Source: a virus
DNA length: 35,507 nucleotides
Reading direction: 5' to 3' (one strand)
Virus record (IMG/VR): IMGVR_UViG_3300023223_000055
Span: 1-35,507 of that record
Shown: positions 1,630 through 35,507 of the stretch, piece after piece
Layout of the letters: every line of letters starts with the position of its first letter
Position numbering within the stretch: position 1 is the stretch's first letter
Notes under the pieces: model-generated
The model's database searches: none
Told to the model about the DNA's origin: nothing
The model's input: only the letters and a program-made list of their open reading frames with translations
Translations under genes and position numbers: made by a program

Positions 1630-2955
1630 CTATATTCTTTTAGAACCGAACGTGTCTCTGTTAGTATCAAGCAAGTCACTGAATTTAACTTCAGTATCTA
1701 TAGGTCTTTGAGTTCTATTATGTGAGTTATTTGAATGAGAATCAATTATAGCATAGCGGAATGCGTCACAGCCATGACTACTCCAATCGTGAACAGGGTC
1801 ATTGCTATAGATATTCCTATCCTCGTTATATTTCCTATGATACTGAGCCAACGACTCTAGCCCCATCTTACACTTCTCTTTGTCAAAGATACACTTGTTG
1901 AACATCATAGAAGCTGCATAAATATCATCTCTCACACTCTGTGTCACTGACTGTACACTGATATCCCTGCCATCAATACCTAGCTTAGCAATCATTTGCC
2001 TAGCTGACATAATGCCGTCCATTGTCCACTTCTTATGCTCTGAGTCATGAGGTAATATATGCTTCTGATAGATATATGGCTTGCTCTTGATTAGCTTCAC
2101 CAAGTCTCTTGGGTCTTCGCTTATACTCTCATAGTAATCTATAAATTGTATCTGTCCACCAACCCACTGATAGAACCATATAGCTGTGGCATCACTTGCA
2201 CCAATATCCCAAGCAGTACGCACGCTATTAGACTCATCATATAGGTTGCTAACAAATCTTCCTTCATCCTTTGCTCGTTTAAGCTCTTTTGCATAGATAT
2301 AGCCTTCTCTAATTGCTTTGCACTCTCCTCCCCAAATGTGTGGGTAATCATCAGGCCGTACGGCAAGGCAGTGTAATCTTTCATCATCTAATTCCTTCGG
2401 AAACCAAGGGTTATCATCCCAGTTAATCTTTACTATTCTACTATTTGGCGGGGGATCATTAACAACAAACATCTGGTGTACTTCGTCACTCTCATTAGCT
2501 GGATTATATGTAACCCATATCTCAGAACCAGGAGCACGGATAGTAGGTACTAATAACTCCCAAGATTCTTTACTAATCCTATCCCCTTCCTCTACCCAAC
2601 AAATATCTACACCCTCAGTAGATTTAATCTCACTGGCATTATGCTTCAATCCCTTGAAGATGAAATCGCTGCCGTTCTTATGTCGTATGTATGTCTCACC
2701 AACATCAAACTGGTCATCAAGGTTAAGCCTAACAATAGTATCTGCTATTAGCTTTAATGCTGAGTCTTTAATGGATTTCTGAAGCTCCCTAGCACATAAC
2801 ACCCTGATAGGCATCTGTGCTGCTCTGGCTACTAACATCTGCGCAACTGACCAAGACTTACCTGATCCCCTACCACCAAGTGCGACTCTGTAACGAGCTT
2901 TACCAAGGAATAGAGGTTTAAGCTTCTTCGGAAGTTCTATCTGCTGCTTAGTCAT
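1630..2955 (-). CDS. terL: Terminase large subunit
   Basis: The ATP-driven packaging motor and headful nuclease, 441 residues with the start at 2955. Walker A is GGRGSGKS at residues 27-34 and Walker B is VDICWVE with its catalytic Glu at about 116-122. A coupling-like segment VTYNPAN follows near 148. The nuclease half starts at AWDIGASD (Asp250/255), with a further acidic site FIDYYE near 273 and a late HGCDAFRYA. Length and motif order fit phage large terminases of the PBSX/Terminase_3 type. I preferred ATG 2955 over 2982 because GGAG lies just upstream and it overlaps the 38-codon gene by 8 bases. terS is four genes upstream, with small genes between them. Confidence 0.95.
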   Translation of the reverse strand: MTKQQIELPKKLKPLFLGKARYRVALGGRGSGKSWSVAQMLVARAAQMPIRVLCARELQKSIKDSALKLIADTIVRLNLDDQFDVGETYIRHKNGSDFIFKGLKHNASEIKSTEGVDICWVEEGDRISKESWELLVPTIRAPGSEIWVTYNPANESDEVHQMFVVNDPPPNSRIVKINWDDNPWFPKELDDERLHCLAVRPDDYPHIWGGECKAIREGYIYAKELKRAKDEGRFVSNLYDESNSVRTAWDIGASDATAIWFYQWVGGQIQFIDYYESISEDPRDLVKLIKSKPYIYQKHILPHDSEHKKWTMDGIMSARQMIAKLGIDGRDISVQSVTQSVRDDIYAASMMFNKCIFDKEKCKMGLESLAQYHRKYNEDRNIYSNDPVHDWSSHGCDAFRYAIIDSHSNNSHNRTQRPIDTEVKFSDLLDTNRDTFGSKRI

Positions 2956-3064
2956 CACTCTCCGGTGGTTTGTAAGAATCATTGACCTCTAAATCAGGAT
3001 TTTCCTTCTTAATGTCTTCAATCATTCTCTTTTGCCAATCCATTAAAACTATCTCTGTAACCAT
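2948..3064 (-). CDS. 38-residue hypothetical protein between terS and terL
   Basis: A short gene starting MVTEIVLMDWQKRMIEDI and ending KPPESDD. It has a strong ribosome binding site (GGAGGAATAGAT before the ATG) and overlaps the terL start by 8 bases. Its last codons (CCG GAG AGT) supply the GGAG used by terL, so at minimum it couples terL translation. No family is recognised. It is mostly helical and charged. Confidence 0.65.
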   Translation of the reverse strand: MVTEIVLMDWQKRMIEDIKKENPDLEVNDSYKPPESDD

Positions 3065-3066
3065 AT

Positions 3067-3270
3067 CTATTCCTCCAGTGATTCTAGTTCTTTCTTGGTA
3101 AGGACTTCTTCAATTCCTATACCAGGATTAGGACGGCCTATATATCTTCTAATGTTATCTATCTCAACTAGACGAAACCTCAAATCAATTGGTATCTTCT
3201 CCCATCTTTCATCTGGATATCTCTTATGCCAGGGGTCGTGTTCTTTCTTCTTGAAAATACTAAACATCAT
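3067..3270 (-). CDS. 67-residue hypothetical protein
   Basis: Begins MMFSIFKKKEHDPWHKRYPD and ends KKELESLEE; basic N-terminus, acidic C-terminus. It starts at a double ATG (3270 or 3267) inside the end of the preceding DUF551-like gene, whose PPEV codons provide GAGG as ribosome binding site. No domain is recognised. The tight overlap with neighbours on the same strand supports it as a real gene. Confidence 0.7.
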   Translation of the reverse strand: MMFSIFKKKEHDPWHKRYPDERWEKIPIDLRFRLVEIDNIRRYIGRPNPGIGIEEVLTKKELESLEE

Positions 3271-3454
3271 TCACCTCAGGTGGGTTAGGCAACGGCATCC
3301 AATGGGTAACACCTTGTATCTGCTCATATTGCTCTGACCAATCAACCCACTCCTTATGAATGTCACACCAAACTACGTGATATACATTTTCACCATCATA
3401 GACTAACCCTTCTTCTTTAAGCGCTGTCTCTACATTAATCCATTCACTCATCAT
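3260..3454 (-). CDS. DUF551-like small protein (copy 2)
   Basis: A 64-residue protein with the pattern SEWINVETALKEEG near the start and GVTHWMPLPNPPE near the end. These are the two hallmarks of the DUF551 family of small phage proteins of unknown function. The middle is shorter than in copy 1. It starts at ATGATG inside the last codons of copy 1, with CGGAG from that gene's PPE codons as ribosome binding site. Two further relatives lie in this genome (3444-3704 and 8174-8362). Position between terS and terL is notable but does not prove a packaging role. Confidence 0.8.
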   Translation of the reverse strand: MMSEWINVETALKEEGLVYDGENVYHVVWCDIHKEWVDWSEQYEQIQGVTHWMPLPNPPEVNDV

Positions 3455-3704
3455 TCATCTCCGGTGGTTCTGGTAGTGGTTGCCAGTGGGTGGGGTTATA
3501 CAGGTAATCGCCTATTCTCTTCTTATTCTTCCAAGTGCCAACCCATATAACACTATCGTCATACAGCAATACATTCCCATCCTTAGGCGCTGTCTCTATT
3601 GGCAACCATCCTCTGCGACGTGCATCAAGAATATCACTTAGCTTCTCCAAGTCTTTATTCCTCCTCTCTAAAGTCTCATCTATTTCACTCCAAAATCTAC
3701 TCAT
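3444..3704 (-). CDS. DUF551-like small protein (copy 1)
   Basis: 86 residues. The first ~30 are a charged helical extension (IDETLERRNKDLEKLSDIL). The DUF551 pattern follows: WLPIETAPKDGNVLLYDDS, then PTHWQPLPEPPE near the C-terminus. It overlaps the end of terS by 8 bases and uses GAGGAAGAAG as ribosome binding site. The family has no established biochemical function. The core closely resembles the early-operon copy at 8174-8362, which suggests duplication or repeated acquisition. Confidence 0.85.
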   Translation of the reverse strand: MSRFWSEIDETLERRNKDLEKLSDILDARRRGWLPIETAPKDGNVLLYDDSVIWVGTWKNKKRIGDYLYNPTHWQPLPEPPEMNDE

Positions 3705-4173
3705 CTTCTTCCTCGTCTTTAAACACTATTTCCAATCCACTCACCTTATACTCACCATCTACACTACCGCTCATCTCAATAGCTTTCTTAGCACCATATA
3801 CTCTCGGAGTCATCTTCTCTAAGAACCTAAACCTAGTATCAACCTGGGCCTTCGCTCTTGCCACTGTCTTATGATTTTCCTTTATGTTACCAAACTCATC
3901 TACTGCTATGTCAGAGCTACTTTCATCAATCAATTGTAAGCACTCATCCACTAGGTAATGACACTGTGTTTCCCTTGCTTCTTCATACTTATGCTTATAT
4001 TCATCAGGATAATCGCGTAACCATCTGTAAAACATAGAGTTTGTCACTGGTATAGATTTTTCCTTTAGAGAAGCTATAACAGACTGTCCATTGGATAGAC
4101 ATTCAAACACATATTCCATGTATTTATCACGTTCTTTATCTGATATATTGGGACTTTTAGGTGGTCGTGTCAT
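3697..4173 (-). CDS. terS: Terminase small subunit
   Basis: 158 residues. The N-terminal third (KYMEYVFECLSNGQSVIASL ... TNSMFYRWLRDYPD) is a helix-turn-helix DNA-binding region typical of small terminases that recognise pac sites. A helical oligomerisation segment with ARAKAQVDTRFRFLEKMTPR follows, and the tail is acidic (FKDEEEDE). A good GGAGG precedes the ATG. Known role of the family: binds concatemeric DNA at the packaging start and recruits the large subunit. It sits about 740 bases upstream of terL in the same operon. Assignment from pattern and synteny. Confidence 0.85.
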   Translation of the reverse strand: MTRPPKSPNISDKERDKYMEYVFECLSNGQSVIASLKEKSIPVTNSMFYRWLRDYPDEYKHKYEEARETQCHYLVDECLQLIDESSSDIAVDEFGNIKENHKTVARAKAQVDTRFRFLEKMTPRVYGAKKAIEMSGSVDGEYKVSGLEIVFKDEEEDE

Positions 4174-5303: not shown

Positions 5304-5506
5304 TTCCTTAGTCCCTGTTTAATTGCTATTGCATCAAGATTGCGCTTAACCTGTCCTTCGGTCAATCCCAACCCCTCTAAATGCTCCTTTGCTTGCTTCA
5401 TATCTGGCTCCTCGTAATGAATATGCATATACTGTGGCATATCGTGGGTTTTATATGACCTCTTACGCACCCTAACTTCTTTCATGTACAACACTGGTAT
5501 TTTCAT
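5276..5506 (-). CDS. 76-residue hypothetical protein
   Basis: Starts MKIPVLYMKEVRVRKRSYK and ends KQGLRKWVEHKIIQ; basic and probably alpha/beta. I chose the ATG at 5506 because it forms an ATGA overlap with the stop of the preceding gene, the junction style used throughout this operon. A GTG four codons earlier (5518) would also be in frame. The segment LGLTEGQVKRNLDAIAIKQG resembles a small helical domain. No family recognised. Confidence 0.65.
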   Translation of the reverse strand: MKIPVLYMKEVRVRKRSYKTHDMPQYMHIHYEEPDMKQAKEHLEGLGLTEGQVKRNLDAIAIKQGLRKWVEHKIIQ

Positions 5507-5748
5507 CTTCCACCCCACTTGTAGTCATGACATGTACGCTTAAATAGGCTGTCCTGTAATCTTCCGTTTGATTCCTCTTCAACTATCTCTGCAACACCGA
5601 GCGGCCGCCACAATCTCCACAATGATTCGCTAACGTGGTATATCTTCCCCTTTTCAAATTCCTTAACATCACCATAACTAGCGCGATCTCGTCGCTCCCC
5701 CGCCATTGGTATTCCCTTCGTTTCTTTTAGCATCCTTACTCTTGCCAT
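5503..5748 (-). CDS. 81-residue conserved hypothetical phage protein
   Basis: Reads MARVRMLKETKGIPMAG, then EFEKGKIYHVSESLWRLW and GVAEIVEEE. This looks like the small phage family starting VRMLKETKG and continuing with a K-x-Y-x-V-x-E-x-L module; function unknown. AAGGAG directly abuts the first ATG with no spacer, so initiation may instead occur at Met6 (5733). Confidence 0.7.
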   Translation of the reverse strand: MARVRMLKETKGIPMAGERRDRASYGDVKEFEKGKIYHVSESLWRLWRPLGVAEIVEEESNGRLQDSLFKRTCHDYKWGGR

Positions 5749-5752
5749 CTCC

Positions 5753-5926
5753 TTACTCCTGTATTACTGGTTTACCGTTGCGTTGGATTATTTCAAGCCC
5801 AATAGATTCCCACGCATCTTTATTATATACTCCTGCGCAGGGTATAAGCTCATCATCACCATCAAATTGCTCATAAGTACATATATCCCCCACCTCTGGC
5901 TCTGCATCATTTGGTAAGATGATTAT
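5753..5926 (-). CDS. 57-residue protein with possible AUA start, or frameshifted gene
   Basis: The reading frame encodes IILPNDAEPEVGDICTYEQF, then DGDDELIPCAGVYNKDAWES and IGLEIIQRNGKPVIQE, a well-formed small protein ending just before the next gene's AAGGAG. No ATG, GTG or TTG lies at its start: an in-frame stop sits just upstream, and the only GTG is 11 codons in. The codon at the natural start is ATA (5926-5924), overlapping the stop of the 15-codon ORF as ATAA. Either a rare AUA start is used by re-initiation, or a one-base change broke an ATG, or an indel broke a longer gene. Confidence 0.5.
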   Translation of the reverse strand: MIILPNDAEPEVGDICTYEQFDGDDELIPCAGVYNKDAWESIGLEIIQRNGKPVIQE

Positions 5927-5970
5927 TCTATCTTATGTATAGCCCTAGCCACTTTCTCTAATGTTTTCAT
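5923..5970 (-). CDS. 15-residue ORF, leader peptide or 5' piece of a broken gene
   Basis: MKTLEKVARAIHKIE then stop. The ATG has a ribosome binding site (GAGAGGTG) and overlaps the previous gene's stop as ATGA, as for real genes in this operon. Its own stop overlaps an ATA codon that begins the next open frame. It may act as a coupling leader or be the N-terminal fragment of a frameshifted gene. Confidence 0.45.
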   Translation of the reverse strand: MKTLEKVARAIHKIE

Positions 5971-6281
5971 TCTTCACCTCTCAATTCTTTAAGTGCTTGT
6001 TGTGCTATCTGGTATGCATCTACAAGACAACTATTCCTCGCTAACTCCAAAGCCTCCACAGCCTTATCAATCTTGGCTTGCTTCTTTGCACAAGTAATCA
6101 GCCAATTATCCCACTTAGCATCATACTCACGCTGCATCTCATCCCAATGCGGTTGGATTATGTCTAGGGCTGTCTCTGCATCAAACAAAAACGAGTCAAC
6201 TATATTCCCTTCTGTAAATTCATCCCTCGCTGTTGCCATACCACTAGCAATCTCTTCTTTCAGTTCGCTTAGTTTAATCAT
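5967..6281 (-). CDS. 104-residue hypothetical helical protein
   Basis: Almost entirely helical and charged: MIKLSELKEEIASGMATARD at the start, DNWLITCAKKQAKIDKAVEA in the middle, QQALKELRGEE at the end. Its ATG overlaps the stop of the membrane microprotein gene upstream (ATGA), with AGAAGGAGAATG as ribosome binding site. The C-terminal 'kAveALElAr ... ALkEl' pattern is common in small phage accessory proteins of unknown function. Confidence 0.75.
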   Translation of the reverse strand: MIKLSELKEEIASGMATARDEFTEGNIVDSFLFDAETALDIIQPHWDEMQREYDAKWDNWLITCAKKQAKIDKAVEALELARNSCLVDAYQIAQQALKELRGEE

Positions 6282-6442
6282 TTCATTCTCCTTCTCATAA
6301 GGTGAAAGGCCACAACTACAAAGAAAGAAACAAGTACAACTGTTATCTCTATGGCTGGTAGTTTCTCAATTAGCTCAAGGGCCACATCCTGCCATGTAGT
6401 CTCTGGTTCCTGCATAACCATCTGCTGTTGTTCAGGAACCAT
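6278..6442 (-). CDS. 54-residue single-pass membrane microprotein
   Basis: MVPEQQQMVMQEPETTWQDV is a polar N-terminus; ITVVLVSFFVVVAFHL (residues ~33-48) is one membrane helix, followed by MRRRMK. The basic tail suggests N-out, C-in topology. It overlaps both neighbours (11 bases upstream, 4 downstream). Function is unknown; it lies in the leftward operon far from the lysis genes. Confidence 0.65.
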   Translation of the reverse strand: MVPEQQQMVMQEPETTWQDVALELIEKLPAIEITVVLVSFFVVVAFHLMRRRMK

Positions 6443-8750: not shown

Positions 8751-8783
8751 CGTCACAGTTACGTCACAGTTACGTCACAGTTG
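8751..8783 (+). repeat. Three tandem 11-bp iterons (CGTCACAGTTR)
   Basis: CGTCACAGTTA at 8751 and 8762 and CGTCACAGTTG at 8773, head to tail with no spacer; a degenerate start (CCGCTACAATT) precedes them. The 11-bp period matches one helical turn, so a protein would bind one face. They lie 11 bases upstream of the replication-gene promoter: origin iterons or an autoregulatory operator. Confidence 0.85.
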
Positions 8784-14491: not shown

Positions 14492-15439
14492 TTAATTCAA
14501 AGCCATATATATAAAGTCTTCATTTAGAACATTGATGCCAGTAGTAGTAGCATTAACTGTGAATCCATCATCATCAAGAGTGAGATTCAAAGTAGTTTCT
14601 ACGTCACTTATGTTCCAGGTAATAACATTATTATCACCCCTACCAGAATCCCATATAAACCAATCACCAACCCCATCCCTTCGTTTAATCATAACAAAAT
14701 TAACCGGGAAATTAGTTGTTATCTTATTACCACTAGCGCCTGTTCCTACATATCCACCAATATCACAAGTTCCAGCTTTAGATGCAAATGTATACATAAT
14801 ATAACTATCAGTATTGGTATTAACGTCAGCATTCGTTCCCAAGGTTACGTTGGTTGCGCCAGGAGCAGTATCGTTCCAGTATGTAGCATCATTCGCTTCA
14901 GCTGCGGTACTGTTAATCTTTATAACAAAATCCTCTGGAGTCGTTCCCCCATTAAGATCACTATGGAATACAGCCCAATCAGTAGCGTCAGTGGTGAGAT
15001 TCTTAATTATAGTAAATTCAGGAGTAGCGTTAAGTCCGTGTGCAATTGTATTGCCAGCACTACCATTACCTGTATAAGAAGTAATAGAAAATACGCGGTT
15101 TGTCTGTTTAAATACCCAGTTTATAAACGCTCCAGTATTGAAGTTTATATTAGCTTCAGTGCTTAGCGTGTATGTTGAACTGGTGGTAGAAGATATCCAA
15201 GTAACAGGAGATAAATCTTGATTATCTGAAGACGCTAATGTTAAAGTTCTATCATCTAATCCTCTGACAGTATCTATACATTGGACAAATGCCACGTTAT
15301 CAGTGCGTCTAAACAATACCAAATCCAATCCGAAAGAATCCAGCACAAGAGCCGCTCCAGTACCTGTGTATGAATTAGATTTAATGATAGGTGGGGCAGT
15401 TGAAATAGCCCCTGAGAATAGAACTAATTTACTAACCAT
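14492..15439 (-). CDS. Tail fibre/receptor-binding-type protein with three internal repeats
   Basis: 315 residues with a repeated unit opening with Y-T/V-G-T/N-G (SYTGTGAA near 23, SYTGNGSAGNTIAHGLNATP near 120, GYVGTGASGNKITTNF near 225) followed by 'f-iiK/R--dg--dW-v'. This arrangement is common in distal phage fibre proteins. Its ATG overlaps the stop of the 280-residue fibre gene. It probably sits at the tip of, or binds, that fibre. Role inferred. Confidence 0.65.
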   Translation of the reverse strand: MVSKLVLFSGAISTAPPIIKSNSYTGTGAALVLDSFGLDLVLFRRTDNVAFVQCIDTVRGLDDRTLTLASSDNQDLSPVTWISSTTSSTYTLSTEANINFNTGAFINWVFKQTNRVFSITSYTGNGSAGNTIAHGLNATPEFTIIKNLTTDATDWAVFHSDLNGGTTPEDFVIKINSTAAEANDATYWNDTAPGATNVTLGTNADVNTNTDSYIMYTFASKAGTCDIGGYVGTGASGNKITTNFPVNFVMIKRRDGVGDWFIWDSGRGDNNVITWNISDVETTLNLTLDDDGFTVNATTTGINVLNEDFIYMALN

Positions 15440-16281
15440 TAAACAATCCTTCCAATAACACTATATTCAGCATCAGTTTCTTTAATAATAATTGCGGACT
15501 GGAATTGTGAATCAATGTCTACACTAGTATTAGAACCGTTTATATTATCCGTTCCTTCTGGTGCTATAGTTACTGTTCCTGCGCCTTGGGCTATAACAAG
15601 TACGTTAAACCCGTCATTTAGATCCTCTGTGCTATTCTGTGGTATTGTGAGAGTAATTGCACTTGCGCTTTCCATATAAACCACTGTACCACTATCTGAC
15701 TGCGTTAAAGTATATGCAGATGTCTTGTTCTGGATAGCTACATCAGCTGTTTGAGTTGCAATAACACTCTCAATTTGGAAATTAGTACCATCATAAACAA
15801 CAGCAACAATTCCGTTATTAGGAATATCGCCAGCAGCTAATGTGTCTGTAACGTTCTTTACAATGCTTTGAGCACCAACCGTACTAACATTTAATGTAGT
15901 AGCGCCGGTATTAGCAAAGTTTGCCTTAAATTGAAATCTCTGTCCTGCAACATAAGAGGTAATAGCAGGAGATAAGGTAAGAACATAAGCATTGGCTGAT
16001 CCTGTTGAAGTTGCATAAATTACACCTTGATCCTGATATTGACCAGTAGCTAGATATTCATTCCTTGCATCAGAGTTTTTTACACCCGTATGATTAAACC
16101 CACCCATAGGAAGATCAGCAGAGATTGTTGTCTGTCCGTCCTTAGTTATACAAGTAGATAGACCTGTTGCAAACCCATCGTCTTCTGCGTCCGTTCTAGA
16201 GGCTGTAACAGGAATACTGTTAGCCTTGTCATCCGTCCAATCGTGGACTCTTACAAATGTACCTGATCCATTAAATGCCAT
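15439..16281 (-). CDS. Tail fibre protein with conserved virion-anchoring N-terminus
   Basis: 280 residues. The N-terminus MAFNGSGTFVRVHDWTDDKA, then SRTDAEDDGFATGLSTCITK and MGGFNHTGVKN, is a well-known opening of podovirus and siphovirus fibres and probably attaches to the tail. The remainder is beta-rich, ending in EYSVIGRIV. It follows the ejection-protein genes, away from the main fibre cassette. Confidence 0.8.
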   Translation of the reverse strand: MAFNGSGTFVRVHDWTDDKANSIPVTASRTDAEDDGFATGLSTCITKDGQTTISADLPMGGFNHTGVKNSDARNEYLATGQYQDQGVIYATSTGSANAYVLTLSPAITSYVAGQRFQFKANFANTGATTLNVSTVGAQSIVKNVTDTLAAGDIPNNGIVAVVYDGTNFQIESVIATQTADVAIQNKTSAYTLTQSDSGTVVYMESASAITLTIPQNSTEDLNDGFNVLVIAQGAGTVTIAPEGTDNINGSNTSVDIDSQFQSAIIIKETDAEYSVIGRIV

Positions 16282-21370: not shown

Positions 21371-22921
21371 CTAAAACGTATTATTGAGTCTGAAGCTATG
21401 GTCTGTTCTAAACCATTCCGCAGAATCTCCATTTAATGCTATACTCATTTTCGTACTTATTGCCACACCGGAGCCAATTAAAGCAAAGCGTATAATCTGT
21501 GCTATAGCCTCATCAGCCCACTGGAATGTGTCCCATTGTCCAACATCCCATTGCGTACCACTTGCAACACTAGTCGTAGCATCTGCCACCACAGGAACAC
21601 CAAAATCAATAGCTTCCCCCATAGTTATATTAAGCTCAGCAGGTGAACGAATTACTTCCTTACTGCTCAAGAATGACTTGTTAAAAGGGCTACCAAAGTC
21701 AAAGAAAGCTCTCTCTCCAACAGTTGCAATATCATCTCCTTCATCATCAAAACCAACATCAGCACGTCTTATAATGCTATCTACACCATAATATAACTGT
21801 CCTTCAATTACTCCGAAGGTTCTTGCTTCCCAAGCTTTAAACCTACAGGCAGCACCTGTAACAGTATTGATCACATACTGATGATAAGTAGTATTAGTAG
21901 CAACCGGAATATTAAAGATAAGCATATCATTAGAAGGGTGTAAAATAGCTTCAAAACCATAATTGCCTCCATAAAGGTCAAATGCTTCTTTAATGGCTCC
22001 TGACAGCTTAGAAGGACTAACGTTTAACCCTCCGCTGTTAACTACCTCTAGCAAACTAACTTGGTCTGCTTCTGTGATAATCTTTAAATCACCCTTAAAT
22101 TTAGTGATTCCTCGGATAGAGATAGGAGGTGGAATAGTATAAACCCCTTCTAACTGCCAATCATTAGCATTGGTTGGGTCAGACCCATTATAAATAAATA
22201 CCTTACCTGTCGTCATTATAAAGCACGCTAAATCATCAGCTCCAAAACCACCATCTCTTGTAATGGTTCCCATAGCCAACAAATCACCACCATCTGCTGA
22301 TATAGCATCTAATTCAAACTCAGAGAAATCACCCTGGATAGCATTTACATCTCCAACGAAGAAACGCTGCTCTTGTGTAGACCAGATATATAAACGACTC
22401 TTAAATACATTACATCCATCCATGTCATCCTGGTCGGTTCCAACAATAGTTACACCTGCACCATCTTTCAGGACAATAGCCAAACTAGAAAGAGTAGTGC
22501 CATTATAACGCTGTGGGGTATCAACACCATTAAACCATAACACATTACCAGTCATATTAACCGTCTGCCAGCGAGCATTAGCGAATCCACTACCTATCTG
22601 TGTTCCTGTTCCTGCTAAGCCATTGGTCCAAGTAAATATCTTATCAGAAGCAGCTGCAAGTCTTGTAACTGATCCTCCAGCATTAAGACTAGTAATCGTC
22701 TCTACATTAGATCCAAAGCCAGAGTTAAAGTTCTCTGAACCATTACGACTCTTTACGCTACCAACTTGAGGAAACCAGTTATCAAGAGTAATAGCATCAA
22801 TAGGGGGCATTAATGATAATGCGTCTCTTGTGTTCCAACCACCAATAGGAGCAGGGATATTACCCCTTGTTCCTTCAGTTATACGCTCTTGTCTTAGCTG
22901 ATCTCTATTTACTGTTGTCAT
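21371..22921 (-). CDS. Tail hub/stabilisation protein (P22 gp10-like position)
   Basis: 516 residues, beta-rich, opening PAPIGGWNTRDALSLMPPID then ITLDNWFPQVGSVKSRNGSE. This opening is conserved in podovirus tail hub/stabilisation proteins. The rest looks like a beta-propeller or repeated beta domain (NVLWFNGVDTPQRYNGTTLS). The start overlaps the stop of the adaptor gene as ATGA. It would close the head below the adaptor ring. Confidence 0.75.
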   Translation of the reverse strand: MTTVNRDQLRQERITEGTRGNIPAPIGGWNTRDALSLMPPIDAITLDNWFPQVGSVKSRNGSENFNSGFGSNVETITSLNAGGSVTRLAAASDKIFTWTNGLAGTGTQIGSGFANARWQTVNMTGNVLWFNGVDTPQRYNGTTLSSLAIVLKDGAGVTIVGTDQDDMDGCNVFKSRLYIWSTQEQRFFVGDVNAIQGDFSEFELDAISADGGDLLAMGTITRDGGFGADDLACFIMTTGKVFIYNGSDPTNANDWQLEGVYTIPPPISIRGITKFKGDLKIITEADQVSLLEVVNSGGLNVSPSKLSGAIKEAFDLYGGNYGFEAILHPSNDMLIFNIPVATNTTYHQYVINTVTGAACRFKAWEARTFGVIEGQLYYGVDSIIRRADVGFDDEGDDIATVGERAFFDFGSPFNKSFLSSKEVIRSPAELNITMGEAIDFGVPVVADATTSVASGTQWDVGQWDTFQWADEAIAQIIRFALIGSGVAISTKMSIALNGDSAEWFRTDHSFRLNNTF

Positions 22922-23619
22922 GAGCTTGGGAAGTTCCCATCTTGAATGTTAACAATTACACTAGGTCTGTCAATAAATGGCTGTAGTTTAGTATTACCTT
23001 TGTCTCTGGCTATAGCTATATTAAGGCTACGCTCATATTCATCCAAATCATCTTGGTAGGCATCACCGTAACGCTTCCTAATGCGATATTTAAGATTCAG
23101 TTCTAGCAAGTACTCAGGGAATACAGTAGTATCGGTATCTGCTGCAAATGATGTCTTGGTAGTGGTCCCATCAGTATCAAGAACCCACTCATCAGTGATA
23201 TAATCATAGTTGATGGTTGCTACACCAGATGGTACAGGAATGATCTCAATCTGATTACTTTGGAATCTCCACTTCTTTTCAATACCAGCAGGGGCAACAA
23301 TACCATTCTCAAGGAATGTAAACTGCCTGTCCGTCATTAACTGCATTCTGGTGTTATTGGTGAAATCCCATAGCGTATCAGAAACAAACCTATCAAAGTC
23401 TGTTTCTACCGCATATTCTTTAGTAGATATAACAGTTGCAAATGTGCCTGTCTTCTGGATATTCTGCCAGTCATGAGAGCGGAGTAAATCCTGCCCCGCA
23501 CGATTAGCAAGGGCAAGAATGTTCTTAACAGATTCAACGTTATTACCTACAACACTAAGAGGTGCTGCTAGTAGCCCCGTTTCGTTTGCGACGTTTTGTA
23601 CTGATGTCAGTAGGGTCAT
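22918..23619 (-). CDS. Head-tail adaptor/tail completion protein
   Basis: 233 residues. Starts TLLTSVQNVANETGL, the usual opening of podovirus adaptor proteins; RAGQDLLRSHDWQNIQKTGT and then IEIIPVPSGVATINYDYITDE and LELNLKYRIRKRYG follow the family pattern. The family binds under the portal (P22 gp4 or T7 gp11 position). Its first 65 bases overlap the end of the previous gene in another frame. Confidence 0.75.
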   Translation of the reverse strand: MTLLTSVQNVANETGLLAAPLSVVGNNVESVKNILALANRAGQDLLRSHDWQNIQKTGTFATVISTKEYAVETDFDRFVSDTLWDFTNNTRMQLMTDRQFTFLENGIVAPAGIEKKWRFQSNQIEIIPVPSGVATINYDYITDEWVLDTDGTTTKTSFAADTDTTVFPEYLLELNLKYRIRKRYGDAYQDDLDEYERSLNIAIARDKGNTKLQPFIDRPSVIVNIQDGNFPSS

Positions 23620-24157
23620 CTTTCTTCACCTTAGGTTTTGTTTCCCTAGCTTCTAAAAGATTAGCAATCTGCTCTTTTAATTCAGCGCATGTTGCTTCTA
23701 AATCTGCTATTTTATTTCTATTATCTACTGCGTCTCCCTGCATTATATACTTTTTAGCAGTATCACGCAATACCCTACCTTGACCGCCCATTCTAGCTAC
23801 TGAATCATCACCTAAAGCAGCTACTTGCTCTACTGTGTGTACTCCATGAGATGATAACATCTTCACTTGTGATTCATTGGGGAAATTCCAATTTTGAATG
23901 GTAGTTCCTTCTAGGTCATGCTTTTCTCTATTTAAAAAAGCTTGATATTGGTTGGGATATTGTCTTTTATCTTTGTCTGAAGCTTTGCCTCTAAAGCTAT
24001 CTTTTTCTTTAAATGGAACAACTTTATGTACATACAGAATGTCATCGTAAATTGCTTTTCCTGCCTGTTCTGTTTCCCAGTTATTCTGCTTACTTTCAAT
24101 GTAAAATGTAACAATCGTGGGGTCTAGTTGTCTTTGCATATCGTATGAATTAAACAT
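23555..24157 (-). CDS. Conserved virion-module protein with helix-hairpin-helix-like region
   Basis: 200 residues. The N-terminal part (DPTIVTFYIESKQNNWETEQ, YPNQYQAFLNREK) is followed by VEQVAALGDDSVARMGGQGR, an HhH-like or SAM-like helical repeat, then a coiled coil and a basic tail (STKRRKRNG). Proteins of this design occur downstream of coat genes in many phages; function unknown. AAAGGAATAGT precedes the ATG. Confidence 0.65.
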   Translation of the reverse strand: MFNSYDMQRQLDPTIVTFYIESKQNNWETEQAGKAIYDDILYVHKVVPFKEKDSFRGKASDKDKRQYPNQYQAFLNREKHDLEGTTIQNWNFPNESQVKMLSSHGVHTVEQVAALGDDSVARMGGQGRVLRDTAKKYIMQGDAVDNRNKIADLEATCAELKEQIANLLEARETKPKVKKDDPTDISTKRRKRNGATSSTS

Positions 24158-29166: not shown

Positions 29167-29418
29167 TTACGGTGTGAATGTTCCTAATTGACTCCAGCTA
29201 CTAGCGCCTTTGGATGCAGCATACTCATTCATCAAGCCGTTAATCTCTGTGTCAGTTGATACTAACTTAATTTGTAGCCACTCTATGAATGCACCATTGA
29301 ATGTAGCATCAGTTGCACCATCCACTAAAAACGCTGCATATAAGTCCCCATTGTACGTTCCAGTAGTTCCACCAATGCTGCGGAACACTGCATGTCTTAG
29401 TCCTTGTTGGGTAGTCAT
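29167..29418 (-). CDS. 83-residue hypothetical protein of the fibre cassette
   Basis: Starts MTTQQGLRHAVFRSIGGTTG, continues TYNGDLYAAFLVDGATDATF NGAF-type phrases and ends WSQLGTFTP. It is a small compact protein found with fibre genes and may be a tail-attachment or chaperone subunit. ATGA overlap with the 57-residue gene. No family recognised. Confidence 0.65.
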   Translation of the reverse strand: MTTQQGLRHAVFRSIGGTTGTYNGDLYAAFLVDGATDATFNGAFIEWLQIKLVSTDTEINGLMNEYAASKGASSWSQLGTFTP

Positions 29419-29588
29419 CGTGTTACCTCTTCTTTAGTTAATTCAAGTTCATTAAGTATAGCTATTAATTCCATCACCTCATCAATACTAGTTGTACTTT
29501 TATAAGTTAATTTCCTAGCTTGTCGCTTACCATTACTATCTCTAGGCGTGTCATCAAGAGTGATAGTCCGTGTTATATTCCTTTTCAT
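29415..29588 (-). CDS. 57-residue hypothetical protein
   Basis: MKRNITRTITLDDTPRDSNG, then a basic stretch GKRQARKLTYK and an acidic helix ELIAILNELELTKEE-like end. TTAGGAG precedes the ATG, and the stop overlaps the next start as ATGA. No family recognised; coupling supports it as real. Confidence 0.6.
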   Translation of the reverse strand: MKRNITRTITLDDTPRDSNGKRQARKLTYKSTTSIDEVMELIAILNELELTKEEVTR

Positions 29589-29596
29589 ATTAACTC

Positions 29597-31426
29597 CTAA
29601 TTTGGGTCAAAATAAGTTATCACCATACCGTGCTGTACAATGTCGTTTGTGCTTGTTCCCTCACCTGTTACTCTAATAGTAATAGCGCCTGTTTCGGTTT
29701 CCGTTAAGGTTCCGTTATGTGTTCTGAATTCAACAGGCACTCCTGATGCGGCCGGTCGGCTAACAATAGCCATATAGTCTTGTGTGCTAGCTCCTGTACG
29801 CAGAATTCTAGCGGTTATCTCCCAATTCTGAATCCCGTTGTTTGCTAGCAATGTGCCTGACTCCATCTCGCTACCGAAATATACTTTAAGTGTTTTGGTA
29901 TTGGCATTATTAGCACCTGTTCCCCACGCATGTAACTCAACCCCCTGACCATCGGCACTGAATGCATCAGCCGGGAAGGTGAACGTCATTAGATCGTCTT
30001 CACCCGTTGTTACATTCCCAACAGCCGTACTATTAGTACTAAGTATCTGAACTGGTTTTGCATCTGTGCTTGAACCACCAACATCTAGATCAGCTGTTCC
30101 ACCATTAATATCTGGGGCTGTCAAAGTCTTGTTAGTCAATGTCTGGGTATCTGTTGTGCCTACAATAGTACCACTAGGAGGAGTAGGACCATCTATAGCA
30201 TCACCGTTAGCATCCCACGTTACCAAATCACCACTTGTTCCTGCAGTACCTGTTACAATGTTAGTATCCGTTCCTGTAGGCGAGGCAAGATCAACAGTAG
30301 CTATATTTGTTATAGTGTTAGCACTTGAATCAATAGTTTTGTTTGTCAAAGTCTGAGTTGTATCAGCTCCTACTATTGCAAAGTCAGCATCTGGAACAGT
30401 AAGTGTTCTCGTAGTTGCTGTTGTAAGACCAGAAACTTGAAATGCCACTTCTTTAGTAGCGTCAAGATTATCCTGTATTCTAAAGATATCATCAGGAACA
30501 TCCAATGCCGTAGTAAAGGTTGGGCTTGATATTGTTGGTGCTGTTCCAAATACAGCAACACCTGTTCCCGTCTCATCTGTAAGAGCGGTGCTCAAAGCTG
30601 ATGATGTAAACGAACCTAATACAGCAGCGTTACCTACAGAAGTTATTTCTCCTGTTAAATTAGCGTTAGTAGTAACAGTGTCAGCATTTCCTGTTAAGGC
30701 CCCCACAAAAGCCGTAGAGGTAATAGACGTTGCTCCAGCTATAACACCGGCGTCTAAAGTAATTGTGCTATCAAATGTTATTGCTTGTCCAGCTGTAGGG
30801 TTTATTGCAAGAGTTGAAGCTCCTGCTGAGCTTATTGTGTTGCCATTAATGGTGATATCATCAACAGTAAGTGTTGTTAATGTTCCTAACGATGTGATAT
30901 TTGGCTGTGCTGCTGCTGTTGTTGCAGTATCTGGTGCCAAGCCAGTTATAATTGATACCGTGCCAGCTGTTAGGCCTGCGGCTGTTCCTGTGCAGTTTGT
31001 TAGCACACCACTAGCCGGTGTACCCAATGCTGGTGTTGTTAACGTTGGAGAAGTTAGTGTTTTGTTTGTTAAAGTGTCTGTTGTGGCTAATCCTACTAGA
31101 GTATCAGTAGACCCAGGTAACGTAAGTGTGGTAGTTCCTGCAACCGCAGCTGCATTCAAAATAGAAGAGCCACTTGTAGACCCAGCTAGAATGAATTTAC
31201 TTACTGCGCCGCCTATAGTCCCAAAAGTCTTAGCACCTGTTACTGTTTGTACGTCAGCTAGTACCATATCTCCAGCACCGCCTGAAGAAAGGGCTACACC
31301 ACCAGCTGTGGAGCCATCACCTATATATGCCGTGTCAGTATCGGTATCAAATAATATCTCACTCTGAGCAGGAGTAATACCTGTTCTTTGCGCTGTTGTT
31401 GCTCTGGGTAGTTTCCAAGTAGCCAT
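29597..31426 (-). CDS. Long tail fibre protein with TLTNKT repeats
   Basis: 609 residues. The N-terminus (MATWKLPRATTAQRTGITPA, then ILFDTDTDTAYIGDGSTAGG) is a common fibre opening. TLTNKT occurs three times (near 120, 355 and 420), each closing a beta repeat such as LTSPTLTTPALGTPASGVLT. The last ~130 residues (from VTTGEDDLMTFTFPADAFSA) form a globular beta domain likely to bind the receptor or cap the trimer. AAGAG lies before the ATG, four bases after the previous gene. Confidence 0.85.
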   Translation of the reverse strand: MATWKLPRATTAQRTGITPAQSEILFDTDTDTAYIGDGSTAGGVALSSGGAGDMVLADVQTVTGAKTFGTIGGAVSKFILAGSTSGSSILNAAAVAGTTTLTLPGSTDTLVGLATTDTLTNKTLTSPTLTTPALGTPASGVLTNCTGTAAGLTAGTVSIITGLAPDTATTAAAQPNITSLGTLTTLTVDDITINGNTISSAGASTLAINPTAGQAITFDSTITLDAGVIAGATSITSTAFVGALTGNADTVTTNANLTGEITSVGNAAVLGSFTSSALSTALTDETGTGVAVFGTAPTISSPTFTTALDVPDDIFRIQDNLDATKEVAFQVSGLTTATTRTLTVPDADFAIVGADTTQTLTNKTIDSSANTITNIATVDLASPTGTDTNIVTGTAGTSGDLVTWDANGDAIDGPTPPSGTIVGTTDTQTLTNKTLTAPDINGGTADLDVGGSSTDAKPVQILSTNSTAVGNVTTGEDDLMTFTFPADAFSADGQGVELHAWGTGANNANTKTLKVYFGSEMESGTLLANNGIQNWEITARILRTGASTQDYMAIVSRPAASGVPVEFRTHNGTLTETETGAITIRVTGEGTSTNDIVQHGMVITYFDPN

Positions 31427-31690
31427 TTATACTCTTAAGCCTCCGTCATTAATTCCGACACCCACAGTTCTTGTGCCGCCGTCTAGTATTCCTGCTGAAC
31501 CACCACCACCCCCTCCTGAGGGAGTCTGAAATGTTAATGTCCCTGCTCCATCTGTTTCAAAAGTCTGTCCATTTGTTCCATCAGTAGTAGGAAATGAATA
31601 AGCATCATTAAATGTTATAGTGCCATCTTCAGCTATTCCAATACCTAAAAAATCTAACTCTCTGATTAACTCCTGCCTGAAATTTGACAT
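31427..31690 (-). CDS. 87-residue fibre-associated protein, Gly-rich
   Basis: Helical N-terminus (MSNFRQELIRELDFLGIGIA), then ITFNDAYSFPTTDGTNGQTF ETDG-type fibre repeat, then a Gly-rich linker and VGVGINDGGLRV. It reads as a minimal fibre fragment or connector that joins the 609-residue fibre to the tail, or as a remnant of a longer fibre gene. Confidence 0.65.
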   Translation of the reverse strand: MSNFRQELIRELDFLGIGIAEDGTITFNDAYSFPTTDGTNGQTFETDGAGTLTFQTPSGGGGGGSAGILDGGTRTVGVGINDGGLRV

Positions 31691-31693
31691 ACC

Positions 31694-31900
31694 TTATACA
31701 ATCCTATAGCCTTTAAATCCGCATCCATCACAGATAACAGGTGTTTGAGGTGGAATGGTGGTGAATTTAACACCGGGATATATATCCTTCAATTCTGTCT
31801 CACAATCATTACAATTTACACCACTCGCTGTTTTTGTATATAGAGCTTCAAAGGTAGCTAAGTTTGTTGCGTTATCTTCATCTAATGTTGGATTTACCAT
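31694..31900 (-). CDS. 68-residue zinc-ribbon protein of the fibre cassette
   Basis: Two CxxC knuckles: GVNCNDCETEL (about 29-35) and VICDGCGFKGYRIV near the end, ~24 residues apart. The N-terminus is acidic. Translation starts just after the 561-residue gene. A metal-binding protein among fibre genes is unusual: virion component, chaperone or regulator are all possible. Confidence 0.65.
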   Translation of the reverse strand: MVNPTLDEDNATNLATFEALYTKTASGVNCNDCETELKDIYPGVKFTTIPPQTPVICDGCGFKGYRIV

Positions 31901-31901
31901 A

Positions 31902-33587
31902 TTATTCTCCTAATACTTCCAATGTCATATCAGTTATAGTTATGTCATCTCCAGTACCATCACCAGCTATCATGATTTGAATTGTGTCAGTTTGCGACAT
32001 AGGAGTGCTATCTATTATTGTTACTTGTACTTTTGTTGTTTTAACTTCCATTGGGGCAAAAGGAGCTGTAGCAAATGTCGGTGTTGCACCATTAACTGAT
32101 ATTGCGAAACGATACTCAGCAGTTGAACCTGTTTTAGTTGCACTTACAGTGGCTCTTATTCCTGCAGTAATATCTTTATCTCCATCATAAGTAAACTCAC
32201 CCAAATCAGTGTCTGTTAGAGTGAATCTCTCAGTAACCGTATTCTCTGCCATTCCTGTGACATCAAGAGCAGTATAAGCATTAACAGCAACTGATGTTAG
32301 ATCAGTATTACCATTCATCTGACCGAGACCAATAATTCTACTATTCTCAGCTTTCCCATTCAGAGCAGCAACAACACCAATATCGGTTTGGTCTTTACTA
32401 GTAGCAGATGCTGTACCCCCTGCTGCTTCCGTGACAAACACCGCTGGAATAGTAAAACTGTTATTATCGACAATAGATAAAATGTTGAATGTTCCGTTAT
32501 AGTTTGTGGTTCCTGCTATAGTGGTAGTTTGATCCTTCACCAAACCATGATTTGCTGCCGCTACTACTGTCTGATTAAACGAAGCTGTACTGTCCGTCAC
32601 AAATACTATAGGAATATCAAAGCTGATTAGATCGTCCGAGACTCTAGTAACCGTATGCAACGCATTAAATGAGCCTTGTGTAGCGTTAGAAATAAGAACC
32701 GATTGACCTATTACAAGCTTTGCAAGAAAGACATTTAGAGTAACGGTTGTGTCGACACCTGGGTTTGTAGCTGAATCTGCAAAACTGAGAATAGATAAAC
32801 CGTCATCACTAAATGCGCCTGTAATCGTTGCAGATATTGGTTGAGTAAAGAAGTTTGATACTCCATCAAAAGAATTACCAATAATATCAACTGTTCCTGT
32901 TGAGGCACTATCTATGCAAAAGACTGAATCAGCTGCATCCAATTCCATATTACTTATACTAGCACCTATTGTGCTTTGTTCTCCCATAAAACATAGAGCA
33001 GCTGATTGCGTGGTTACCGCAGAAAGATTTGCAATACGACCTGATGAGAATGATGATAAGAATTGAGCTGTATTATTTCTAGAAACAATACCTCTTTCAA
33101 AATTTACGAATGTTGAATTTGATGCAGATAATGTCAAATCAACAAGGTTTCCTAATTCTCCAAAGTTAAGCAACGGAACACCCGTCATTATAAGGGAAGA
33201 AAAGAATTCTCCACCAACTAAATCAAACAATTTTGTTGTTTGTGGTGTTGAATCAGCAAGATTAATATTACGTAAAGCAAGAATACCAATATTCCTCCCC
33301 CAAAAGTGAGGTACTGAACTACCAGATATATTAATAGTTGAAGCCTGTATTGCAGTTGTGAATTCAGTTACTTGTGGTATAGATGGGGTAGTAGCTTTAG
33401 GTATCAGAATACGAGGCAAGATAACTCCGGGATGTATTATATATTTTGTATCCAAAGCCGCTGCAAAGCGCATTTGACCATCTGGCGCTAGTGTTAACGG
33501 CATCTGTGATTCATCATATATATCAATAATAGACGGATTCTTTGTAGCTGCTTGTTGTGTTGTTAAATTAAAATTTGGGCCTGACAT
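31902..33587 (-). CDS. Tail spike/fibre-like protein, beta-helix type
   Basis: 561 residues, beta-helix-like and Ser/Thr/Ala-rich. Internal repeats read 'NHG/ALHTVT-v-D--ISFDIPIVFVT' and 'NYNGTFNILSIVDNNSFTIP' (about residues 280-400). The C-terminal ~130 residues (TERFTLTDTDLGEFTYDGDK onward) parallel the end of the 446-residue protein at 203-1543. TAGGAGATAAAA precedes the ATG. Probable spike or receptor-binding subunit; no enzyme site is identified. Confidence 0.7.
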   Translation of the reverse strand: MSGPNFNLTTQQAATKNPSIIDIYDESQMPLTLAPDGQMRFAAALDTKYIIHPGVILPRILIPKATTPSIPQVTEFTTAIQASTINISGSSVPHFWGRNIGILALRNINLADSTPQTTKLFDLVGGEFFSSLIMTGVPLLNFGELGNLVDLTLSASNSTFVNFERGIVSRNNTAQFLSSFSSGRIANLSAVTTQSAALCFMGEQSTIGASISNMELDAADSVFCIDSASTGTVDIIGNSFDGVSNFFTQPISATITGAFSDDGLSILSFADSATNPGVDTTVTLNVFLAKLVIGQSVLISNATQGSFNALHTVTRVSDDLISFDIPIVFVTDSTASFNQTVVAAANHGLVKDQTTTIAGTTNYNGTFNILSIVDNNSFTIPAVFVTEAAGGTASATSKDQTDIGVVAALNGKAENSRIIGLGQMNGNTDLTSVAVNAYTALDVTGMAENTVTERFTLTDTDLGEFTYDGDKDITAGIRATVSATKTGSTAEYRFAISVNGATPTFATAPFAPMEVKTTKVQVTIIDSTPMSQTDTIQIMIAGDGTGDDITITDMTLEVLGE

Positions 33588-33596
33588 TTTTATCTC

Positions 33597-34358
33597 CTAC
33601 CAGCTAAATAAGTTTGTGCCATCTGAATAGAGTCTTATAACTCCATAATCGGCTGTTATATCTACACTCGTTGCACCATCTATTGTTTCTGCACCTTCTG
33701 TATCAATAGTAATTGTTGTTCCATTGGCTACCAAAGTTCCTGACTCATCTTTAACAAAGAATTTCCAGGGTTGGGTAGGAGTACCTAGTATAATCTGGGC
33801 TGTTGATATAGTTAGTGTTCTATCTAATGTACCATCAGTAAATCTATATGATTCTTTAATACCACCCAATCCATTTGTAGAATTGGATGCCACAGTAGTT
33901 ACACCACTTCCTGCAAATATTCCTGTAGTAGTTACTATCTCATCTGCTGGATTGATGGCTAAAACTAACTGATTGATGAATGCAGACCCAGTATCAGTCA
34001 AAGTATCAAAACTAAATACTCCACCTTCCCAACGTTGAGCCATTATTTTCAGGTCAGTACCCCGACTAGTATCTTCATATACATTTCTAGGTCCGAAGTT
34101 ATCAGTATATAATGCGCCACGATTAGCGCCTGTATAACCTGATGTTCCACCTGTTTCTAAATGTAGTATTGCATTTGGTCCAGTCGTTCCTATACCTAGA
34201 TTACCAGATGAATCAATAGTCATCCTTGTGACATTTCCGTTAGTACGAAAGAATAGTTCTCTTGCACTGTTATCGTAAAGAACTGCGCCATCAGAACTAT
34301 TTAATGCACTTCCGAATGCCATTCCTTGAACAGTAGATACACCTCCTAAGAAATTCAT
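33597..34358 (-). CDS. Distal part of a split tail fibre gene
   Basis: Open from 34413; the first usable ATG is at 34358 (TTG at 34361). It contains VTRMTIDSSGNLGIGTTGPN and ILHLETGG, a classic fibre repeat, and ends GVIRLYSDGTNLFSW, a typical fibre C-terminus. Removing one copy of the 8-bp duplication at 34414-34429 joins it in frame to the gene upstream (DTGLTADANSSLIIEDSNG). It has no convincing ribosome binding site, so on its own it is probably poorly translated. Confidence 0.65.
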   Translation of the reverse strand: MNFLGGVSTVQGMAFGSALNSSDGAVLYDNSARELFFRTNGNVTRMTIDSSGNLGIGTTGPNAILHLETGGTSGYTGANRGALYTDNFGPRNVYEDTSRGTDLKIMAQRWEGGVFSFDTLTDTGSAFINQLVLAINPADEIVTTTGIFAGSGVTTVASNSTNGLGGIKESYRFTDGTLDRTLTISTAQIILGTPTQPWKFFVKDESGTLVANGTTITIDTEGAETIDGATSVDITADYGVIRLYSDGTNLFSW

Positions 34359-34387
34359 CAAATTCAGACCATTGCTATCTTCAATAA

Positions 34388-35507
34388 TTAATGATGAATT
34401 AGCATCAGCAGTAAGGCCAGTAGGCCAGTATCATTCTTAGTTATATGCAATAAATCTTGTGGAGCAGTTTCATTAATACCAATGAAGCCAGTGCTTACAT
34501 TCCCAAATATTATATCTCCGATACTTAAGAAATTACTTGTTGAACCTGCTGCTACATTGATATTATGCCCTATCAATATATTATCGCTACCTGTCGTTAA
34601 ATTATCCCCATTTAAATTCCCGATACTTACATTTCTGTCACCTGTTAGTAGATTGAAAAAACTTCCGTCACCAAACACAACATTATCATCTGCTGCGCCC
34701 ATAATTTGAGCGGTAAGCGTTCCCATCAATAAGTTTCTTGAACCAGTCGGAGTGGACGCGCCACCAGCGGCAGCTGACCCAAAAACAATGTTACTATCGC
34801 CCGTAGTCCAAGCTTTTCCTGCACCTACACCTATAAATATACTATTTCTGTCGTTATAAGCCTCACCAGCCTCAAATCCAAGAGCTATATTATTACCTTG
34901 TCCAGTGCTTAAAGTAGTTAAAGCTTCTTTTCCTATAGCGATATTACTAAAACTTGTTGTTATTGCATCTAAAGCATCAATGCCGATGGCAATATTTCTA
35001 GTTGCAGTTGTTATAGTTCCAGGTAAACCATCAGGTAAAGAAATATTATCTAAACTATCTGTAAATGTTCCTTCTCCTGTTTGGCTTGGTAGATTATTAG
35101 CATCTATTCTTCCTGGAGTAGTAACATTATCAGAATCATCTATAATAACAGCAGAATCTTGAATATTATTACCACCTACTCCATTCCACCTAGCAATAGC
35201 ATTATCTGTTGCAGATGCAGGGCCTACAACATCACCGCCTCCCATTCCTTCCCATGCAACACCATCAAAGTTCTCAATGTCATCGGTTGTGGTATTATAA
35301 ATCATTAAGCCAGCAGCAGGAGTAGATATAGCATCACGCTGTGTAGTAGTCATTCTAGGAGGCAATAGCCCTCTAGTGGTGCTTGTTACTTCAAACTGTG
35401 CAGATGCATCGTGTGCACTTGTATTAACGGTAGCAGTATTGAGTGTAGTATCTACAAGGAATGCTGGATTGCTTGTATTGTTTTCAATAAGAAACTTTGT
35501 AGCGCTA
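34388..35507 (-). CDS. Proximal part of a split tail fibre gene (5' end across window edge)
   Basis: The frame is open to base 35507 and continues from the piece at 1-203 if the genome is circular (440 residues in total). RGLLPPRMTTTQRDAI and AAGLMIYNTTTDD are a hallmark fibre segment. Next come beta-roll repeats of the YadA-head kind (SNIAIGKEAL, NNIALGFEAG, NSIFIGVGAG, DNILIGHNIN), then FIGINETAPQDLLHITKND. The last 12 residues (LLALLLMLIHH) are out of character and arise from the 8-bp duplication. The intact gene would be 701 codons. Confidence 0.75.
   Translation of the reverse strand, partial: SATKFLIENNTSNPAFLVDTTLNTATVNTSAHDASAQFEVTSTTRGLLPPRMTTTQRDAISTPAAGLMIYNTTTDDIENFDGVAWEGMGGGDVVGPASATDNAIARWNGVGGNNIQDSAVIIDDSDNVTTPGRIDANNLPSQTGEGTFTDSLDNISLPDGLPGTITTATRNIAIGIDALDAITTSFSNIAIGKEALTTLSTGQGNNIALGFEAGEAYNDRNSIFIGVGAGKAWTTGDSNIVFGSAAAGGASTPTGSRNLLMGTLTAQIMGAADDNVVFGDGSFFNLLTGDRNVSIGNLNGDNLTTGSDNILIGHNINVAAGSTSNFLSIGDIIFGNVSTGFIGINETAPQDLLHITKNDTGLLALLLMLIHH
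34414..34429. repeat. 8-bp tandem duplication splitting the fibre gene
   Basis: AGGCCAGT occurs twice in direct succession (minus strand ACTGGCCT). Two copies send the fibre frame into a stop 14 codons later; one copy restores the frame through to 33597. It is the site of a natural insertion, a slip-strand switch, or an assembly error. Confidence 0.9.

Follow-up and report, generated by a model that had tools for sequence, protein, structure and literature searches.

An 8-bp tandem duplication at the frame break of a probable single tail fibre gene in an uncultivated tailed phage

The window analysed here, a 35,507-nucleotide stretch comprising the whole of an IMG/VR virus record, carries long tail fibre sequence that is divided between two reading frames, and the division coincides with a short tandem repeat. 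This raises the question of whether the repeat switches the fibre between a truncated and a full-length form, as the first-pass annotation had proposed, or whether it marks the loss of a fibre gene by mutation. The features of the locus are as follows.

203–1, minus strand: N-terminus of the fibre, whose ATG at 203 overlaps the TAA of the upstream gene (203–1555).
34388–35507, minus strand: proximal fibre part as written, whose codons carry on from 203–1 over the contig ends; stop at 34388–34390.
34414–34429: perfect 8-bp tandem duplication (AGGCCAGT twice on the plus strand; the gene lies on the minus strand), at the frame break.
33597–34430, minus strand: distal fibre part in the other frame, a shaft with the motif RMTIDSSGNLGIGTTGPNAILHLE followed by the C-terminal tip.
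33597–33830, minus strand: C-terminal tip domain, ITIDTEGAETIDGA...LYSDGTNxF, conserved in seven other viral contigs (L002–L008), where it closes a fibre encoded by a single gene.
31902–33587, minus strand: following gene of the operon, whose start lies 9 nt past the full-length fibre stop (33597), an operon-like spacing; it has no family match.

The whole window was scanned in six frames with a codon model fitted to the remaining structural genes. Across the contig ends (203–1, then from 35507), the frame-0 coding log-odds were unbroken at +26 to +30, although the record has no terminal repeat; the reading of the fibre frame through a circular junction is sound, the coding statistics being continuous in one frame. 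The frame-0 log-odds remained at +16 to +50 up to 34.4 kb, beyond which the signal passed to frame 2 with log-odds of +21 to +39. The maximum-likelihood position of the switch was 34426, which lies within the duplication, and stop codons bound the switch to 34432–34391. No second mid-gene frame change was found in the structural module (~14–35.5 kb plus 1–3 kb, about 23 kb).

The proximal part contains head repeats of the TGxxNIAIG type and, immediately before the break, the capping-loop motif GINETAPQDLLH. The upstream frame then terminates as ...KNDTGLLALLLMLIHH*, with its stop at 34390–34388 preceded by the residues ...NDTGLLALLLMLIHH, so that the contig as written encodes a truncated product of 440 residues (67 + 1 + 372). 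The downstream frame begins with TGLTADANSSLIIEDSNG... and is open for 277 codons, to 33597, with no further decay, which implies that the break is recent, artefactual or reverting. Removal of one copy of the repeat restores the frame into the distal fibre, and the coding frames join at the site, as had been claimed. The accompanying statement that the restored gene has exactly 702 codons is arithmetically right (2114 nt in total; 2114 − 8 = 2106 nt, that is to say, 702 codons with the stop included) and is not specific to the loss of a copy, since the opposite change of one added base also restores the frame (2114 + 1 nt, 705 codons). Neither half of the fibre matched Pfam, and the S74 chaperone domain was not detected in the fibre.

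The duplication itself is as first described, with two perfect copies of AGGCCAGT head to tail at 34414–34429 and a match that reaches 34430 (17 matching bases). The tandem pair is unique in the window, where the chance expectation for the exact 16-mer is 0. Perfect tandem pairs with a unit of at least 8 arise by chance about 1.0 times per 35.5 kb (dinucleotide shuffles), whereas the chance of such a pair landing within 34391–34432, the only 42 nt that permit the frame change, is ~1e-3. An 8-bp repeat alone is therefore unremarkable, but its position inside the frame-change zone is not. A survey of 965 kb yielded 105 tandem pairs with a unit of at least 7 that is not a multiple of 3, and 3 of these 105 were so placed that a broken frame could be rejoined; on reading, the other two (in L038 and L096) look like chance overlapping ORFs in GC-rich DNA.

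Homologous fibres read through the site. In tblastn searches, the one-copy junction peptide gave a one-frame alignment over the site in the Planctomycetota metagenome-assembled genome L096 (42%, 5e-19) and likewise in S-CRES1/2, P-TIM68, S-CBP1, HTVC304P, and CRP-823; at a looser limit, 50 phage records covered at least 80% of the 112-aa junction query. In the one-copy form of the fibre, the segment leading from the Leu of the capping loop to the invariant Phe after it has 42 residues; it also has 42 in three homologues (L089, L092, and L094), 43 and 44 in two others, and 24 and 39 in a further two. Scans at the protein level, with either half or the junction as the query, found no near orthologue, and an alignment of 8 sequences was too diverged for scanning. 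The fibre-like gene of S-SM2 (L091, GU071095) is itself interrupted: a frame break of one base at 2456–2500 divides it between SSM2_039 and SSM2_040.

Comparison with known fibres and adhesins revealed that (i) the shaft repeat and the capping-loop motif are common to the window's fibre and the marine phage fibres with GIGTTxPxxxLH shafts (S-CRES2, P-TIM68, S-CBP1, and HTVC304P); (ii) these marine fibres are single genes, whereas the window's fibre is split; (iii) the GIGTTxPxxxLH capping-loop shaft of this trimeric-fibre class is thus present here, and the single-gene organisation of the class is recovered only with the two frames joined; and (iv) the shaft has detectable sequence similarity (1e-6) to the Bdellovibrio mosaic adhesive trimer (MAT) proteins (PDB 8ojn and 8ond). 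The capping-loop consensus of the MAT proteins is V-G-G/N-x-x-x-P-x-x-x-L (PMC10769870), which the stretch GINETAPQDLL, just ahead of the break in the window's fibre, resembles. The MAT proteins are adhesins of a bacterial predator, unlike the phage fibre, and the likeness covers the shaft. At the other end of the fibre, the tip domain with its ITIDTEGAE core forms the C-terminus of single ORFs in the seven contigs L002–L008; its structural model was of low confidence (pLDDT 57) and gave no useful fold match.

Taken together, the continuous homologues, the shared spacing, the tip domain, the 9-nt gap to the next gene, and the ATG/stop overlap at the start indicate that the two parts derive from one ancestral gene of ~702 codons, likely in the one-copy frame. 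The proposal of a single long fibre truncated by a frameshift at a tandem duplication is accordingly borne out by the coding statistics, the homologue spacing, and the distal tip domain. The spacing in the homologues favours an ancestor with one unit, from which one duplication of 8 bp would have led to the present sequence.

The gene setting bears on what such a loss would cost. About 8 kb of fibre and adhesin genes (29167–35507 and 1–1555) lie between the terminase large subunit gene (TerL) and the portal gene. By contrast, TerL is succeeded immediately by the portal gene in L100, the closest relative, and the two genes are nearly adjacent in L101, so the window's fibre plausibly sits in an inserted accessory cassette for host recognition. 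The best TerL match among the relatives was 51% and the major capsid protein (MCP) matches were 63–72%, and the fibre was matched in none; the MCP relatives L100 and L101 lack it. In the neighbourhood of the fibre, the minus-strand ORF at 29597–31426 encodes a 609-aa protein with an Mtd_N (major tropism determinant N-terminal) domain (3.4e-7), and further tail-fibre-like proteins lie elsewhere in the genome, at 14492–16281. Two minus-strand ORFs of the tail region (22918–23619 and 23555–24157, together 22918–24157) overlap by 65 nt, for which recoding or a late start is possible. A perfect 11-bp tandem repeat (CGTCACAGTTA in 2.9 copies, 8751–8782), just past a terminator-like hairpin and T run, is apparently intergenic and iteron-like or operator-like.

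The locus is probably best explained as an ordinary loss-of-function frameshift, caused by the 8-bp duplication, in an accessory gene of ~702 codons for a long, trimeric, receptor-binding tail fibre in an uncultivated tailed phage. Replication slippage, with one base of microhomology, would have duplicated 8 bp and destroyed the frame; the truncated product would end just behind the shaft capping loop and lose the distal shaft and the tip domain. The mutation would have reached fixation or a high frequency in the population that was sampled, and the loss may be tolerated because the fibre gene sits in an accessory adhesin cassette, with further candidate host-recognition genes next to it. We observe directly the duplication, the change of frame at this point, and homologues that read through; we infer that the virus truly carries this allele, that the product is non-functional, and that the fibre is dispensable. 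Against this explanation, an unbroken orthologue was not seen, the close relatives searched being without this fibre, and the allele could be a minority variant or an error of assembly.

A precedent exists in phage lambda, whose common laboratory strain has the tail fibre gene stf reduced by a frameshift to two truncated frames (PMC9659904). The lambda stf gene (ORF401 and ORF314 of lambda PaPa) is likewise an accessory tail fibre gene split by a frameshift, and lambda is still viable (PMC9659904). As there, two adjacent frames in the window correspond to one intact homologue. The lesion here is an 8-bp tandem duplication, unlike that in stf, and the likeness is one of gene organisation.

The next reading is an assembly or consensus artefact, in which the fibre of the population is intact and the extra 8 bp of the contig (or a missing base) is wrong. 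The undecayed downstream frame is compatible with such an error, and a relative shows that essential genes in this collection can be frame-broken: in L101, a contig with ambiguous bases, the major capsid gene (5380–6340) and apparently the portal gene (1983–3963) are frame-broken, probably through sequencing or assembly errors. However, the ~23 kb of structural genes in the window have no other mid-gene frame change, and assemblers produce a perfect 8-bp repeat by mistake far less usually than they do 1-nt indels. We regard an artefact as possible but unlikely.

Decidedly improbable is a third reading, in which an in-frame duplication of 9 bp (CAGTAAGGC twice, encoding TGLTGL) came first, made by the flanking CAGTA repeats, and one base was then lost or misread. 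The site can indeed be read as CAGTAAGGC-CAGTA(-)GGC-CAGTA, that is to say, as a 9-bp in-frame repeat minus one base; Tandem Repeats Finder reported 2.6 copies with one indel, from 34409; and among frameshifts and sequencing errors, indels of one base are the most frequent. The AGGCCAGT duplication would then be a by-product. Yet this reading needs two events instead of one, and it adds three residues to the protein, giving a Leu-to-Phe spacing of 45, compared with 42 in three homologues and 43–44 in two.

The slipped-strand switch that the first-pass annotation had placed first, in which the copy number of the 8-bp unit toggles the fibre between full-length and truncated forms, is very improbable. 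It would account for the exact coincidence of a tandem repeat with the break in a receptor-binding gene and for an undecayed downstream frame. As in slipped-strand phase-variable genes, the frameshift lies at a tandem repeat with a unit length not divisible by three, and the unit number alters the frame (two 8-bp units; the loss of 8 bp restores it). Unlike in those genes, there is no multi-unit tract that is present in both states and exceeds chance, since chance alone yields a comparable perfect tandem pair in every 35 kb or so; and with two units OFF and one unit ON, the ON state has no tract to slip. A gapped exact pattern for alleles with 0 to 3 extra copies recovered no second allele in viral and genome contigs, a collection from which near-identical records may be missing. 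The slippage switches known to us retain a repeat tract in both states. In the open-access full-text literature, no phage fibre was found that is switched by such gain or loss of a unit. Two units are the minimum that any duplication produces, and the toggle is thus not supported; the fixed mutation and the assembly artefact, which had been named as alternatives to it, are both more likely. The intact allele having a single unit, the ON-to-OFF step would call for a duplication of the ordinary, rare sort, and a somewhat raised rate could be expected for the OFF-to-ON step alone; reversion may be somewhat faster than point mutation. A low-level, reversible contingency locus, operating by precise gain and loss of a single 8-bp unit, so that virions bearing the distal fibre would be mixed with virions lacking it, has at best a slender chance; should both alleles coexist in several samples, this would be an unusual slippage-based host-range switch of a phage.

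Extremely improbable is the production of both halves from the two-copy sequence by programmed −1 ribosomal frameshifting or from a second start: a −1 shift within 34432–34391 would fuse the two frames and add three residues, but the zone has no XXXYYYZ heptamer, on which the programmed shift was rejected, and no homopolymer of 5 or more, the internal starts (34361, 34358, and 34322) have no well-spaced Shine–Dalgarno sequence, and the homologues use a single frame.

For annotation, the locus calls for caution, since gene calling would yield two proteins for the one fibre, and linearisation of the contig additionally severs its N-terminus. If the break is an ordinary frameshift, as we consider probable, it would represent another accessory tail fibre lost by mutation.
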